Source: Thalassolituus sp. | GTDB taxonomy: Bacteria > Pseudomonadota > Gammaproteobacteria > Pseudomonadales > Oceanobacteraceae | Assembly: GCA_006212115.1 (NCBI GenBank) | Contig: PDUK01000004.1 | Location: forward strand, 1-64,000 | Length of the DNA stretch: 64,000 bases | Direction: 5' to 3' | In this document: piece after piece, positions 3,245 to 8,767 of the stretch | Layout of the letters: each line of letters starts with the position of its first letter | Numbering within the stretch: position 1 is the first letter of the stretch | Position numbers and translations under genes: made by a program | Notes under the pieces: model-generated | Databases searched by the model: none | What the model was told of the DNA's origin: nothing | The model's input: the letters and a program-made list of their open reading frames with translations, nothing else

Positions 3245-5959
3245 TCACATAGGGTACATGCGCTTGGCCTGCCAGGCGTATTTTTCTTTATTGAGCTTCA
3301 TCGCCACCTCAACTATGCCATCAGCCGAATTCAGTTTACTGACAAACCCAAGCCGTTCTGCCAGTTTAAGCATAGGGCCATTCTCTGGCAGTACAGACCC
3401 ATAGATCTGCAACACCCCGCGTTCGCGAAGGTAGTCGATAATGCGGGACATCAAATGAAAGCCCAGGCGTTCGCCTCGACTATTGTCGTCAACGATAACA
3501 GAGAACTCCGCGGTAACATCATCAGGATCAAGCCATACTCGGACAACACCGAAAAGAGCCGAACCTTTCGTAGCTACAAATGCCATTTCACGGTCGTAAT
3601 CAATCTGCGTCAGCCGTGCTAGTTCTGTGTGGTCAAAGCGCCGCCGCGCAGAAAAAAACCTCAGACGAAGACTCTCCGCACTCAGGCGATGGTAAAACGC
3701 CTCCAGCTCTGGCTCGTCCTCTCCGCGAATAGGTCGCACGTGGTACTCACCGCCTGAGGGGCTAGTGTAGTTGGCAGCAAGCTCAGTCGGGTATGGCAAA
3801 ATAGCGCACTTCACAGGCTCACCCACTTCTGCCGCTACCCCAATCACCCTGTAACGACCGATTTGTTGCCGGATTGCATTAACCTCCAGACCTGCCAGCC
3901 ACGGATGATTCAAAGCAATATGAGACATTGCCACCAACCAGCGCTCAAGCGTCAGCAAATCCTTATCCGGGTACTCTGATCGCTCCTGCAGCACTTGGTA
4001 AAAATGCGACTTTCTGATCAGCTTTTCAGCCAGATTGGCATTAAGCGGAGGCAGTGCAACCTGTCGGTCAACGAGGATGTCAGCAGTACTGCCGCCACCG
4101 CCAAAAAAGATAAATGGACCGATTTCATTATCGCGGCCTATTCCAAACGAAAACTGCAGGTTGTCCAACGCACGATGCATGGTCTGAATGGTATATCCAA
4201 GTATTGGACTATCCGGAAATCTCTCACTGATTACATTCGAGAGAGCGTCGATCGCAGGTAGGATCTCTTTCTCATCATCCAAATCCCGAACCACACTTCG
4301 AACACGCTCACGAGGGTTGTCGCCGTATGCAAACGGAAACAAGTAATCGCGATGATGCACTCGCAACACCCATGGCTTTGGAATACCCGAAGCATCACTT
4401 ACAACATCATGAATAGTTGACCGAAAAATATTGTCGGCGCAGGAGTAGCCGTACGCCCTGAGCAGTTCATACGCATCGGGCGGAGAAAGATAATCACCAG
4501 ACTGATAACGACCGCGAATGTCTTTGTTCAGATTTGCGTGCTGCGCCGACACCGGAATCTCTATACTTTCTGGGATTTCGCGGAGTAGCTCCTGAGTCCG
4601 TTGATGCTGCACCATATACATGTAGGACTTAATAGCGTTGTCGGGCGTATCAAATGTCGGGATTTTCGCTCTGTCAAATGCAGCTCGCGCCTCCTCAACG
4701 GAGTACTCCCCAATCCAACTGGTCAACACTGCTTTTTGAGTGTGCGCTGCAACTTCAATCAATGCCTTAGCATTATCCAACGGATTAGTCCCCAGACCCG
4801 GGGTATAAATCACAAGCAATGCATCTACCTGGCGGTCGGCCAATACTGTACGTGCAACCGCCGTTAACTGCTCAGGCTTAAGCTCCGGATTCAGCAACAG
4901 TGGATTCTCGGTACTGACGTAGGAAGGAAGATCTCGTTTGAGTACCTGCTTGCTCTGATCGCTCAACTCAGCCAACTCACCACCGTCATGCAGCAAGCGA
5001 TCAAGCGCTATGATTGCTGGGCCACGGCCATTCGCTATTACCGCAAGCCGCGGACCGAAGCGCTCGCGCCGATCACTCAGCGCATCAACACAGTCAAAGA
5101 GCTCATCGGTAGCGTCAACTCGCAGTACACCGGCCCGGGCAAGGACTTCATTGATCAGATCATCACGCTTGGCCAGCCCTCGCGGAGCTGAAACCGAACT
5201 CAGAGGTGAATTTGAAAATCGATTATTTTTAACTGCCAGAACAAGCTTGTGCCTTGATGCTGCCCGAAGCGACCGAATCAATGACCGGCCAGATCGTATC
5301 TCATCCAGCTGAACCAATAAGGTCCGTGCCTTGGGTTCCTGAGCGATGTAATCGATCAGATCAGGAAGTGTCACATCTTCACTTCGCCCCAGCGTGGCAA
5401 CATGCGAAAAACCGATTCCGCGACTGTAAGCCCAATCCATCACCCCAGATGCCAGCGTGCCGGACTGCCCTATGTATGCGATGGAACCACGTTTCACAGG
5501 AACATGCAGTACGCTCGCGTTTACAGACCGATGAGGAATAACGATACCGAGACAGTCCGGCCCGAGAATACGCATACGTGTGCGTTTCACAATCCGATCA
5601 AGGCGCTCGGAACTCGGCCGAAACTGCCAGGAACGGGCCCTCGCCATGCCGCCAGTCAGGATCATTGCCGCTTCCACACCCAGTGAGTGCAGTTGCTTAA
5701 CTACGCGAGCGACCGAATCAGCCGGCGTACAGATGATCGCGAGGTCAGGTACGGGAGATAGCTGACTCACCTTGGAGAAGGCAGGCAGCCCATAGATCTC
5801 TTTGTAGCCCTTACTGTTAACAGGCTGAATATTACCGCCATAACCGGAGCTCTGAAGGTTTCGCACAATGGCGCCCCCCAAGCTCCCCTGCCTGTCTGAA
5901 GCGCCGATCACGGCAATCGTTTCTGGCTGAAAAAAACGTTCCAGCGAACGGGTTCCCAT
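3245..5959 (-). CDS. PatZ-like protein lysine acetyltransferase (acyl-CoA synthetase-like + GNAT)
   Basis: About 700 residues resemble NDP-forming acyl-CoA synthetases: a CoA-binding Rossmann domain (FFQPETIAVIGASD near residue 10), a succinyl-CoA-ligase-like region, then an ATP-grasp-like region. A GNAT domain follows from about residue 737 to 880, with the acetyl-CoA motif SRGERLG at about 827-833. At the position where true ADP-forming synthetases carry the phospho-histidine motif SHTGALAG, this protein reads SAPRGLAK, so the catalytic histidine is absent, as in E. coli PatZ. That favours a protein acetyltransferase, typically acting on acetyl-CoA synthetase, over a synthetase. I start at the ATG at 5959, with GGAGG 4 bases upstream, rather than the TTG at 5962. 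Divergent from the deacetylase gene. Confidence 0.92.
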   Translation of the reverse strand: MGTRSLERFFQPETIAVIGASDRQGSLGGAIVRNLQSSGYGGNIQPVNSKGYKEIYGLPAFSKVSQLSPVPDLAIICTPADSVARVVKQLHSLGVEAAMILTGGMARARSWQFRPSSERLDRIVKRTRMRILGPDCLGIVIPHRSVNASVLHVPVKRGSIAYIGQSGTLASGVMDWAYSRGIGFSHVATLGRSEDVTLPDLIDYIAQEPKARTLLVQLDEIRSGRSLIRSLRAASRHKLVLAVKNNRFSNSPLSSVSAPRGLAKRDDLINEVLARAGVLRVDATDELFDCVDALSDRRERFGPRLAVIANGRGPAIIALDRLLHDGGELAELSDQSKQVLKRDLPSYVSTENPLLLNPELKPEQLTAVARTVLADRQVDALLVIYTPGLGTNPLDNAKALIEVAAHTQKAVLTSWIGEYSVEEARAAFDRAKIPTFDTPDNAIKSYMYMVQHQRTQELLREIPESIEIPVSAQHANLNKDIRGRYQSGDYLSPPDAYELLRAYGYSCADNIFRSTIHDVVSDASGIPKPWVLRVHHRDYLFPFAYGDNPRERVRSVVRDLDDEKEILPAIDALSNVISERFPDSPILGYTIQTMHRALDNLQFSFGIGRDNEIGPFIFFGGGGSTADILVDRQVALPPLNANLAEKLIRKSHFYQVLQERSEYPDKDLLTLERWLVAMSHIALNHPWLAGLEVNAIRQQIGRYRVIGVAAEVGEPVKCAILPYPTELAANYTSPSGGEYHVRPIRGEDEPELEAFYHRLSAESLRLRFFSARRRFDHTELARLTQIDYDREMAFVATKGSALFGVVRVWLDPDDVTAEFSVIVDDNSRGERLGFHLMSRIIDYLRERGVLQIYGSVLPENGPMLKLAERLGFVSKLNSADGIVEVAMKLNKEKYAWQAKRMYPM

Positions 5960-6033: not shown

Positions 6034-6954
6034 ATGCCAATAGCTTACTACACTTCAGAAGCGCATTTCTCGCACAATACTGATGCAGATCACCCTGAGC
6101 ATGCAATGCGCATCATGGCGATCGAACAAGCACTTAAGCAGACTGGCTTGTGGAATGAACTTGAGCATCATGAAGGGAAAAAAGCCGACCTTACAGATAT
6201 CAAACGTGCGCACAGTGAAGGCTACATAGAGCAGCTGCATTTAATCCAGCCAGATCACGGGCAAATACTTGTCGATGAAGATACGGCCATGACCCCAGGC
6301 TCACTTGAGGCCGCGCTTTGGTCGGCTGGGGCTTGCGCATTGGCATTGGACAACACAGGCTCCAGCACTGGCCAACATGCCTTTGTCGCAACCCGCCCTC
6401 CCGGCCATCATGCCGAACACCGAAAGGCCATGGGCTTTTGCTTTTTTAACAACATTGCCATAACCGCCTTGCGCGCAGCGGACGTCCATCACTATCAGCG
6501 AATCGCCATTTTGGACTTCGACGCACATCAGGGAAACGGCACCATCGATATATTGGGTAACGATAAACGTTTCCTCCTCTGCTCAAGCTTTCAGCACCCC
6601 TTCTATCCCTATAGCCATTACGAGCAGGCAAAGTTTAACAACGTGATCAATGTTCCGCTCTGCGAAGGCACAGGGAGCGCAACCTTTAGAGCCTTGATAG
6701 AGGAACACTGGCTGCCTAAGCTTAAAGCCTACGCACCTGAGATCATCCTTGTTTCAGCGGGCTTCGATGCGCATAAAGATGACCCGATGGCAGAGCTTTC
6801 TCTGATAGAGGACGATTATCTGTGGCTCGGGCGTCAGATCCGGAAACTGGCCAGCAAGAGAAACACACCAAGCATCAGCATTCTTGAGGGCGGCTACAAT
6901 TTAAACGCGCTCGGCGCCAGTGTCGCGGCGTACTTGCGTGGATTATCTGACTAG
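6034..6954 (+). CDS. Histone deacetylase family amidohydrolase
   Basis: Zinc-dependent deacetylase of the arginase/deacetylase fold (HDAC, AcuC and acetylpolyamine amidohydrolase group). The tandem catalytic histidines are H125-H126 in RPPGHHAEH. Zinc ligands are likely D163 and H165 (DFDAHQGNGT) and D245 (SAGFDAH). The GGY tail motif sits at 286-288, so the active site looks intact. The length of 306 residues is typical. Only 74 bases separate it from the divergent PatZ-like gene, suggesting the substrate could be acetyl-lysine, though acetylpolyamines are equally possible by family. Confidence 0.92.
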   Translation: MPIAYYTSEAHFSHNTDADHPEHAMRIMAIEQALKQTGLWNELEHHEGKKADLTDIKRAHSEGYIEQLHLIQPDHGQILVDEDTAMTPGSLEAALWSAGACALALDNTGSSTGQHAFVATRPPGHHAEHRKAMGFCFFNNIAITALRAADVHHYQRIAILDFDAHQGNGTIDILGNDKRFLLCSSFQHPFYPYSHYEQAKFNNVINVPLCEGTGSATFRALIEEHWLPKLKAYAPEIILVSAGFDAHKDDPMAELSLIEDDYLWLGRQIRKLASKRNTPSISILEGGYNLNALGASVAAYLRGLSD

Positions 6955-7189
6955 TCATTGCACGACTTTGCGCACCCCCTGACCGTAACCCACTGTTTCT
7001 CACGTTCACAAAAGACGACAAAGCAATCACGACCCAGTCACAGACTTCCTGGGGCGACACATGCATTCTGTAAATGTGTGGAGCTAGAGACGTCCCTGCG
7101 ATCTGCCTACCGATTCGGTACGCTGTTGTTCGCTAATGTTGGCTGATACTGGCCGATGGTGAGAGACCAAAGACTGTGAGAGAAACAAT

Positions 7190-7342
7190 ATGACAAAAAG
7201 AAATGAAGAAGGCGTGATTCATTCATTGGTTGCATCGGCAGAACGCTTGGAAAAAGTGACCCGAATAGAAATTGGCCTCGTCTTAATGACGGCTTGCTGT
7301 AGCGCCTCTGTCCTTATCGCTTCCATTCAAAGCTGGCTGTAG
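7190..7342 (+). CDS. Small hypothetical membrane protein, 50 residues
   Basis: ATG to TAG open frame. The N-terminal half is charged and helical (ASAERLEKVTRIE) and the C-terminal half is one hydrophobic segment of about 22 residues ending at the stop, so a single-pass inner membrane protein is likely. GAGAGAAAC lies just upstream of the start as a weak ribosome-binding site. A strong intrinsic terminator follows 43 bases after the stop, which supports a real transcription unit. No homologue recognised and no function proposed. Confidence 0.6.
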   Translation: MTKRNEEGVIHSLVASAERLEKVTRIEIGLVLMTACCSASVLIASIQSWL

Positions 7343-7385
7343 CCCGAACTCAAGCAATCGAATTAAGACATTCAGAACACAACGA

Positions 7386-7420
7386 AAAAGGCCCGCTGGT
7401 TTTCACCAGCGGGCCTTTTA
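7386..7420 (+). terminator. Intrinsic terminator, probably bidirectional
   Basis: Perfect stem AAAAGGCCCGCTGG / CCAGCGGGCCTTTT around a 6-base loop, with A-run before and T-run after. It can end transcripts of the small membrane ORF on the plus strand and of tRNA-Ser on the minus strand. Confidence 0.9.
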
Positions 7421-7448
7421 AATAATGGCGGAGGGATAGGGATTCGAA
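7420..7448. repeat. Duplicated tRNA-Ser 3' end (att-like copy 1)
   Basis: This 29-base stretch is identical to 7565-7593, which covers the 3' end of the intact tRNA-Ser from the T-loop through the encoded CCA and a few flanking bases. Beyond base 7448 the sequence no longer matches a tRNA. This is what a tyrosine-integrase attachment event at a tRNA 3' end leaves behind. Confidence 0.85.
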
Positions 7449-7472
7449 TATCTGCCCTGCCTAAAACGAAAA

Positions 7473-7523
7473 AAGCTGCATTTATTCCCAGCTTTGTTCC
7501 CAAAACCTTCATAAATGCAGCTT
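7473..7523. repeat. 13-bp inverted repeat enclosing two direct repeats
   Basis: AAGCTGCATTTAT (7473-7485) and its exact reverse complement (7511-7523) are separated by 25 bases. Inside are TTTATTCCCA (7481-7490) and TTTGTTCCCA (7493-7502), a 10-base direct repeat with one mismatch. The whole lies between the two copies of the tRNA-Ser 3' end, so it may be the recombinase-binding part of an integration scar (inference). Confidence 0.7.
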
Positions 7524-7570
7524 CTTATCATTCTAAAAAATCTAAGTCACTGATTTTTAAGAAAAAATAA

Positions 7571-7661
7571 TGGCGGAGGGATAGGGATTCGAACCCTAGA
7601 TAGGCTATTAACCTATGCCGGTTTTCAAGACCGGTGCTTTCAACCGCTCAGCCATCCCTCC
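7571..7661 (-). tRNA. tRNA-Ser (UGA)
   Basis: On the minus strand the acceptor GGAGGGA pairs with TCCCTCC. The anticodon loop CTTGAAA gives anticodon TGA (serine, UCA codons), and there is a long class II variable arm (ATAGGTTAATAGCCTAT). The T-loop is GGTTCGAATCC, the discriminator is G and CCA is encoded. It is intact. Its 3' end is duplicated at 7420-7448. Confidence 0.97.
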
Positions 7662-7739
7662 GAACGCCATAAATTTCCACGTCAACTTCTTTTTTAAAAT
7701 CAATTCGTTACCCAACAATCTGACGAGCTGACACTCACT

Positions 7740-7770
7740 CTTTGCGGCGGTATCATAGCGCCACGCAAAG
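7740..7770 (+). other. Hairpin in the leader of tusD
   Basis: CTTTGCGGCG and CGCCACGCAAAG pair around a 9-base loop with a small bulge, ending immediately before the ribosome-binding site GAGGAAA of tusD. It could affect translation or mRNA stability. There is no T-run, so it is not an intrinsic terminator. Confidence 0.45.
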
Positions 7771-7781
7771 AGGAAATTCCG

Positions 7782-8168
7782 ATGAAGTTTAGCCTGCTAA
7801 TAACCAGTTCACCGTTTGAGACGACGCAGCACGAAAGCGCATTGCGGTTCGCGAAAGCGGCACTAGCAGATGGGCATACCATACAGCGTATTTTCTTCTA
7901 TAAGGACGCCGTCCTTGCAGCGAATGCAATGACCACCCCTCCGCAAGGTCAAACGTCAGCATTCCAGGACTGGCAAGATTTTTCAAAGCAGACAGGTGTC
8001 ACGCTGCACGCCTGCATCGCCAACAGCTTAAGGCGCGGTATCGTCGACTCAACCGAAGCTGAGCGATATCAGTTAACTGGAAGCAACCTGGGTTCTGCTT
8101 TCAGCCTGGCGGGTCTGGGTGAAATGACTGAAGTGATGTCAGACAGTGATCAGCTGGTGCAATTCTGA
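7782..8168 (+). CDS. tusD: Sulfur relay protein TusD/DsrE
   Basis: First subunit of the TusBCD complex, which accepts persulfide sulfur from TusA and passes it to TusE for 2-thiolation of tRNA wobble uridine by MnmA. The 128-residue protein has the DsrE-like start (MKFSLLITSSPFE) and the conserved cysteine region (GVTLHACIANSLRRG; C at about 79). Start supported by GAGGAAATTCC upstream. It overlaps tusC by one base (TGATG), so it heads a coupled run tusD-tusC-tusB-tusE-ybiB. Confidence 0.94.
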   Translation: MKFSLLITSSPFETTQHESALRFAKAALADGHTIQRIFFYKDAVLAANAMTTPPQGQTSAFQDWQDFSKQTGVTLHACIANSLRRGIVDSTEAERYQLTGSNLGSAFSLAGLGEMTEVMSDSDQLVQF

Positions 8169-8506
8169 TGAGTAGTTACATCCTTGTACATATCAGACAC
8201 ATCCCCACTCAGGATTGCGAGGCGCTTGAATACGCCCTTGCCATGGCAGCCTTCGATCTACCTGTACGACTGCTTTTCTCTGGCAACGGGATACACTGGT
8301 TAAATAAGCAACACGGCGCTTTAAAGGATGGCAGCAAGAGTCCAAGGAAACTCCTGGCCGCTTGCTCGATGTACGAGATCGATCATATAGGCCTGACAGG
8401 TGATCCGGAACTCGACGACGACTCCCTCGTCAAAGATGTGACCATCTTAAATTCAGGCGAGGCCGCCAGCTGGATGGCAGCTGCTCACCACGTGGTATCT
8501 TTCTAA
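8168..8506 (+). CDS. tusC: Sulfur relay protein TusC/DsrF
   Basis: Second DsrE/F-type subunit of the TusBCD sulfurtransferase. It has 112 residues with the usual fold pattern (ALAMAAFDLPVRLLFSGNG). TusC, unlike TusD, does not carry the acceptor cysteine in the family. A cysteine-containing loop (LLAACSMYEIDHIG) is visible in the second half. Order and one-base overlap with tusD identify it. Confidence 0.9.
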   Translation: MSSYILVHIRHIPTQDCEALEYALAMAAFDLPVRLLFSGNGIHWLNKQHGALKDGSKSPRKLLAACSMYEIDHIGLTGDPELDDDSLVKDVTILNSGEAASWMAAAHHVVSF

Positions 8507-8509
8507 CTT

Positions 8510-8767
8510 ATGACCATACACATGCTCTTCACCGCTAACCAGCAAACGCTCAGCGAAGCGAGTGCTATGCTCAAGGACAAAGATACGCTTCTACTTGTCG
8601 GTAATGGATGTTATCTCGCGGGACAAGTCAAACACAGCAGCTCATTTGCCCTAAGTCAGGATATGACAGCGCGCGGCCAGACAAACACCGCTATCAAACT
8701 GATCAGTGATTCTGAATGGGTAGAGTTAGTTGCTTCTTCAGACCAGGTTATAAGTTGGTTGGATTAA
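8510..8767 (+). CDS. tusB: Sulfur relay protein TusB/DsrH
   Basis: Smallest subunit of the TusBCD complex (85 residues). The pattern DTLLLVGNGCYLAG, then a C-terminal end near SDSEWVELVASSDQVISWLD, is characteristic of DsrH proteins. It starts 3 bases after tusC and is followed 13 bases later by tusE. Confidence 0.9.
   Translation: MTIHMLFTANQQTLSEASAMLKDKDTLLLVGNGCYLAGQVKHSSSFALSQDMTARGQTNTAIKLISDSEWVELVASSDQVISWLD

Follow-up and report, generated by a model that had tools for sequence, protein, structure and literature searches.

A duplicated tRNA-Ser(UGA) 3' end in Thalassolituus sp. is very probably the scar of a collapsed phiCTX-type prophage

The window analyzed here, the whole 64-kb stretch of DNA, contained a single tRNA gene according to ARAGORN, a tRNA-Ser(UGA) on the minus strand. 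Its neighbors are genes that we take to be host-like, an HDAC-like gene (6034-6954) and a TusD-like gene (7782-8168), both names being our own assumption. A repeat search of 6600-8600 revealed a 29-bp direct repeat with 100% identical copies at 7420-7448 and 7565-7593. Their start-to-start distance was 145, as the first-pass annotation had stated. By k-mer count, this pair was the only 29-mer present twice in direct orientation in the window, and all repeated 20-mers in direct orientation derived from it. An exact 29-base repeat at a distance of 145 bp is far beyond chance. The identical bases had been described as running from the T loop to CCA. The identity was confirmed but the extent was not: 23 nt lie inside the tRNA, beginning with the T-loop TTCGAA and ending with CCA, and the remaining six (7565-7570, plus-strand AAATAA) fall past CCA. 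A 116-bp spacer (7449-7564) separates the copies. Within 6900-7800, the tRNA alone reached its Rfam gathering score, while sX4 and 12 other families (E up to 1) stayed below theirs. From the tRNA outward, the features of the locus are as follows.

7571-7661, minus strand: intact tRNA-Ser(UGA) gene, the probable integration target (ARAGORN; Rfam tRNA, 61.4 bits)
7565-7593, minus strand: proximal 29-bp copy, covering the tRNA 3' end and a few bases beyond it, probable attL core (repeat search, k-mer count)
7527-7564, no strand assigned: A/T-rich attL flank, putatively phage-derived, with AAGTCACTGATTTTTAAG at 7544-7561, resembling the same place in G024, G028 and UBA1087
7470-7526, no strand assigned: long hairpin with stem 7470-7485 and 7511-7526 and a T-run toward the tRNA, probable terminator supplied by the element
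7484-7505, no strand assigned: paired arm-type repeats ATTCCCAG and TGTTCCCAAAA, 11 bp apart, probable integrase arm-binding sites of the P' arm
7463-7467, no strand assigned: putative deletion joint, AAAAC common to the attR-like side (GCCTAAAAC) and the attL-like side (AAACGAAAAAAG), placed by comparison with G024 attL and attR
7449-7466, no strand assigned: attR stub of about 18 nt adjoining the distal core, probably phage-derived, with GTTTTAGGC before the core as in G024 attR and contig L108
7420-7448, minus strand: distal 29-bp copy, probable attR core, with the original tRNA 3' flank TTATTT (repeat search, k-mer count, G024 comparison)
7386-7419, no strand assigned: original tRNA terminator with a 15-bp stem, apparently shifted by 145 bp when the element inserted (in congeners, a terminator immediately follows the tRNA)

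The spacer thus runs from an A/T-rich stretch to a GGGAA-type repeat pair within the long hairpin, then to TTTTAGGCAGGGCAGATA and the second core. The repeat pair at 7484-7505 was the sole arm-repeat pair of its type across the window, and such a pair arose in 1 of 5000 spacer shuffles. The segment 7380-7570, which includes both hairpins and with them the native terminator, folded with z = -6.87, a value that none of 200 shuffles equaled. The hairpin at 7470-7526 probably now ends the tRNA transcript. No phage structural genes were found between the repeats. The earlier statement that no integrase or cargo remains holds.

A search of the genus with the tRNA region gave matches in all nine genomes, including that of the window. 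In all eight congeners the locus, viewed with about 1.5 kb on each side, has one tRNA 3' end followed directly by a terminator-like hairpin with a T-run. Seven of these hairpins came from one set of loci, and that of G007 (L016) was recognized by eye. An HDAC-like gene, a TusD-like gene or both adjoin the tRNA in every one of the eight. Whole-genome pattern searches of G001, G002, G004 and G005 found one exact core and one match with a single mismatch in each. The G003 locus (L017) contains a run of N within the tRNA and none in the 3' flank. In the window, the terminator matching that of the congeners (7386-7419) sits beyond the distal repeat. Because the congeners are single-copy and the terminator now lies past the distal repeat, an insertion of the 145 bp between tRNA and terminator most likely took place in the lineage of the window. 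Conservation of the same spacer across distant genera had been named as evidence against a scar, but the eight congeners all lack the spacer at this locus. The single similar two-core structure elsewhere, in Thalassolituus UBA1087, has another tRNA-Ser gene and another spacer.

The paired arm repeats linked the locus to a particular type of integrase. A near-copy of the window pair, ATTCCCAGNNTTGTTCCCAAAAC, had three matches among about 2.9 million viral contigs, and all three contigs (L108 and the contigs of L161 and L162) carry an adjacent phiCTX-type integrase. Scanning viral contigs for the double arm of UBA1087 (G040) and G028 yielded two contigs, L107 and L108. The L107 match falls inside a reading frame and was taken as chance. 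In the phage contig L108, a tRNA-Ser 3' end is flanked on either side by arm repeats, and an integrase gene ends at these arms. The encoded integrase shares 83% identity with one from Halomonas phage vB_HboP_4908 and 56% with phiCTX int, and 251 of the 252 matched phage records were under 60%. The record of phiCTX, a phage reportedly studied by Hayashi et al. in 1993, marks the attP core at 1737-1766. The sequence there is tRNA-Ser 3' end-like, with TTCCCA repeats before the core.

We also examined the DNA downstream of the integrase at 45 loci, keeping the 30 with at least 150 nt and dropping 15 for a short flank. A tRNA-Ser-type core was present in 27 of the 30, at least two arm repeats (by a broad expression) in 27 and both in 26, although these are not 30 independent cases because many are near-copies. 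The exceptions were L190 and L195, where core and arms are both absent from the first 420 nt (a tRNA-Ser lies further away in L195), L199, with arms but a tRNA-Arg, and L185, with a core whose arms were missed by the expression. ARAGORN found a tRNA-Ser in 10 of the 15 integrase loci submitted. The spelling of the arm repeats differs by clade, with GTTCCCAAA, GGTCCCAAA and GGTCACAAA as variants (L169-L183, L194-L199). The last of these goes with a tRNA-Arg neighbor in one locus (L199), so that arm spelling and target might change together.

Of the marks of a phiCTX-type attachment site, the window has the tRNA-Ser 3' end as duplicated core (7420-7448 and 7565-7593) and at least two TTCCCA-type arm repeats, spaced 11-12 bp, on the tRNA side of the element (7484-7505). 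The adjacent convergent integrase gene is missing from the scar, where 116 bp leaves no room for it. The suggestion that the repeat is the footprint of a tyrosine recombinase was supported, and the arm pair, the core and the integrase loci together allow its type to be named as phiCTX-type.

Relatives of the spacer were sought with the spacer and a few tRNA bases in 44 family genomes (E up to 0.05). Twenty genomes gave matches, many of them to the tRNA end alone. Two longer partial relatives emerged, in G028:C66 at tRNA-Ser(UGA) and in G040:C5 at tRNA-Ser(GGA). The latter is apparently contig DCCG01000020.1 of Thalassolituus sp. UBA1087 (L124). Its tRNA 3' end is likewise duplicated, with a start-to-start distance of 123, and its spacer aligned with that of the window at 74% over query positions 1-82 of 146, the endpoints differing. 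Both UBA1087 and the window have the two cores and the arms, and nothing else. G028 retains an attL with arms and an integrase-type terminator. Its genome had no match to the phiCTX-type integrase query, no integrase was seen by eye in frames of at least 120 aa over 18.8 kb beside the attL, and a genome-wide search found no second exact core, one match with a single mismatch lying elsewhere. Near 238800 of G028:C1 (L053), a similar A/T-rich AATCAGTGGCTTA flank and TTTCCCAAAC come after a tRNA-Pro and may represent another attL or a remnant.

G024, of the same family, carries an attL and the C-terminus of a phiCTX-type integrase beside tRNA-Ser(UGA), and its ends resemble those of the window. 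The N-terminal part of the integrase is at one end of C27 and the C-terminal part at the start of C5, with 51% and 61% identity to L130. Because the gene is split over two contig ends, the prophage is seen only in parts. A second core with an attR-like flank occurs in C12 and at the end of C26. Arm repeats and GTTTTAGGC precede both, and in C12 a terminator like that of the window follows. Arms on the attR side are also present in L108 but missing in the window, where the stub at 7449-7466 is all that precedes the second core. Comparison of the G024 attL side (CTTTTTTCGTTTCTGGGCC, the end of the integrase terminator) and attR side (CTTTTTCCGGGTTTTAGGC) with the window (CTTTTTTCGTTTTAGGC) indicated that the deletion joint probably lies in T-rich microhomology near 7463-7467, a position read against one diverged relative.

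Spacer alignments were scored against 500 dinucleotide shuffles. The G028 attL remnant scored 51 (best shuffle 31), the UBA1087 spacer 41 (best 28) and the P' side of L108 40 (best 28). The P side of L108 and the G024 attL both scored 27, with best shuffles of 24 and 26. The G024 attR scored 22, matched by 8 of 500 shuffles. As this attR aligns weakly as a whole, identification of the stub depends on the short motif before the core. As controls, the flanks of seven of the eight congeners scored 16-21 against the spacer, a level reached by 19 to 155 of 200 shuffles. The divergence of the spacer precludes its assignment to a single phage.

Two broader genome surveys were made with strict patterns, so their rates are lower bounds. 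Among 293 genomes of the order, 14 matched a pattern of two tRNA-Ser-type ends separated by 91-151 bases: eight were tRNA clusters, five had no tRNA and one was the window. With the reversed pattern as control, there were five matches in four genomes. An arm-plus-core scan of about 85,000 species genomes returned 20 matches. An additional upstream core was present in two of them, one from UBA1087 and one from a Chitinophaga MAG (L115, around 4347-4534). The latter looks like a plain tandem duplication of a tRNA-Ser 3' half and terminator and seems unrelated. In viral contigs, the window core with the stub had no match, and AAAAATCAGTGACTTA occurred in 44 stretches, whose short contexts showed no tRNA-Ser attachment site by eye. 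Three matches to TTTGGGAACN{20,50}TTCGAATCCC were judged chance. The class-wide pattern TTTGGGAACN{2,14}TTTGGGAACA was found in none of 369 genomes, being too strict and too spread out. In a blastn search of 7400-7600 against phages and plasmids, mainly the two copies of the tRNA end matched, and no match covered 80% of the query.

Several other explanations of the structure were weighed. The assembly is a draft of 224 contigs, 84.5% complete, so a living prophage might have been collapsed to its ends during assembly. We consider this very unlikely. No match to the phiCTX-type integrase L130 was found on the other contigs, incomplete as the assembly is, and UBA1087 independently has a similar structure. 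The arm repeats common to both ends amount to only about 10 bp, which is short for an assembly join. The Pfam integrase search of the assembly returned two other tyrosine recombinases and presumably no evident XerC or XerD, which indicates that the assembly or the search is incomplete. This genome also contains a 343-aa open frame (G000:C86:741-1343, L129) that looks to us like an integron integrase IntI, suggesting a chromosomal integron, and a truncated tyrosine recombinase fragment (G000:C13:5591-6013, L131), presumably P4-type, which points to a further broken element. The latter fragment lends something to the idea that the scar stems from an element with a different integrase, for instance a P4-type one, as does the AATCAGTGACTTA-like flank beside the tRNA-Pro of G028 (L053). 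Still, paired arms and a tRNA-Ser-type core follow a phiCTX-type integrase at the great majority of loci examined, as does such an integrase accompany the arm pair of the window on every contig matching it, and we find a different integrase scarcely credible.

The 145 bp could be a non-autonomous mini-element of one core and one arm-site cluster, moved in trans between tRNA-Ser genes by phiCTX-type integrases much as a MITE would be, with the UBA1087 unit another such element. The two units are indeed alike in build (core, A/T-rich flank, paired arms, core) and sit at different tRNA-Ser genes, and an attachment site alone would then be a mobile element. However, their spacers are similar over part of their length only and end differently, and the window lacks the attR-side arm of the L108 attP and G024 attR. 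The searches did not turn up near-identical copies at several sites; there is one copy in its own genome and a diverged analogue in UBA1087, the only one of this kind among the 20 matches of the large scan. In the order, the 14 matches other than the window were tRNA clusters or chance matches, though strict patterns such as these may have overlooked some copies. The one-sided remnant in G028 is what erosion predicts. Because the breakpoints differ among G028, the window and UBA1087, erosion by deletion is favored, and the mini-element appears slightly less likely even than an assembly collapse. The distal copy might instead be the tail of a lost second tRNA gene left by tandem duplication, as tandem tRNA-Ser(UGA) pairs with similar short spacing occur in another family of the order (f190; L203-L207). 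Yet the identity ends at the T loop, where phage cores end, the sequence preceding the distal copy does not resemble a tRNA, the spacer matches the attL of phages, and the congeners are single-copy. We regard such a duplication as hardly believable, on a par with the different integrase.

It is thus very probable that a bacterial virus once sat in tRNA-Ser(UGA) and was lost by deletion, leaving a collapsed phiCTX-type prophage scar. The incoming element, a temperate phage or something related to one, would have used a phiCTX-type tyrosine integrase to recombine into the last 23 nt of the gene. The attP of the element would have restored the tRNA 3' end, pushing the old 3' end and terminator to the far side. 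A later deletion would have removed the whole element, including the integrase gene. The residue would be the attL end (core, A/T-rich flank, paired arms and hairpin), fused to some 18 nt from the attR end and followed by the distal core. The first-pass annotation had left open whether an element was almost entirely deleted or an empty attachment site was present. Deletion is favored because an untouched attB would contain no phage-side attL sequence or attR-like stub, and the spacer holds attL arms, an A/T-rich stretch and such a stub. Excision now seems unlikely, since the attR-side arm is gone, while the core may still be usable as a target by new phages.

Within the family, the genomes look like successive stages of decay, from an integrase with both ends (G024) through an attL remnant (G028) to collapsed scars (the window and UBA1087). 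The window would represent the last step in the decay of a prophage at a tRNA gene. The scar is of a known and ordinary kind and alters no general view; what was identified here is the type of recombinase. It allows the lost element to be typed from about 100 bp, and the paired arm motif could serve to find other erased phiCTX-type prophages.

Judging by titles and abstract openings, none of the papers listed by a literature search dealt with this locus. Passages of PMC6379469 describe grounded, cryptic or degenerate prophages that lose excision and then undergo deletion; compared with these, the window is an end state in which no phage gene is left. Parts of PMC6389784 deal with other P2-like phages, including RSY1 at tRNA-Ser(GGA). 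The attP/int region of Pseudomonas phage phiCTX (D13409; Peduoviridae, Citexvirus) resembles the window in its tRNA-Ser 3' end-like core, and has TTCCCA repeats between int and the core and a terminator after int. In the window, by contrast, int and the phage are gone and the ends alone remain. The closest spelling and spacing of the arm sites were found in Halomonas phage vB_HboP_4908 and IMGVR_UViG_3300047455_000348 (L108), whose core is likewise a tRNA-Ser 3' end. These carry an integrase gene and have arms to either side of the core, whereas those of the window are confined to the tRNA side. The G024 prophage ends differ from the window in keeping the integrase gene, broken as it is, and share with it the tRNA type, the order of parts and the kind of terminator after attR.
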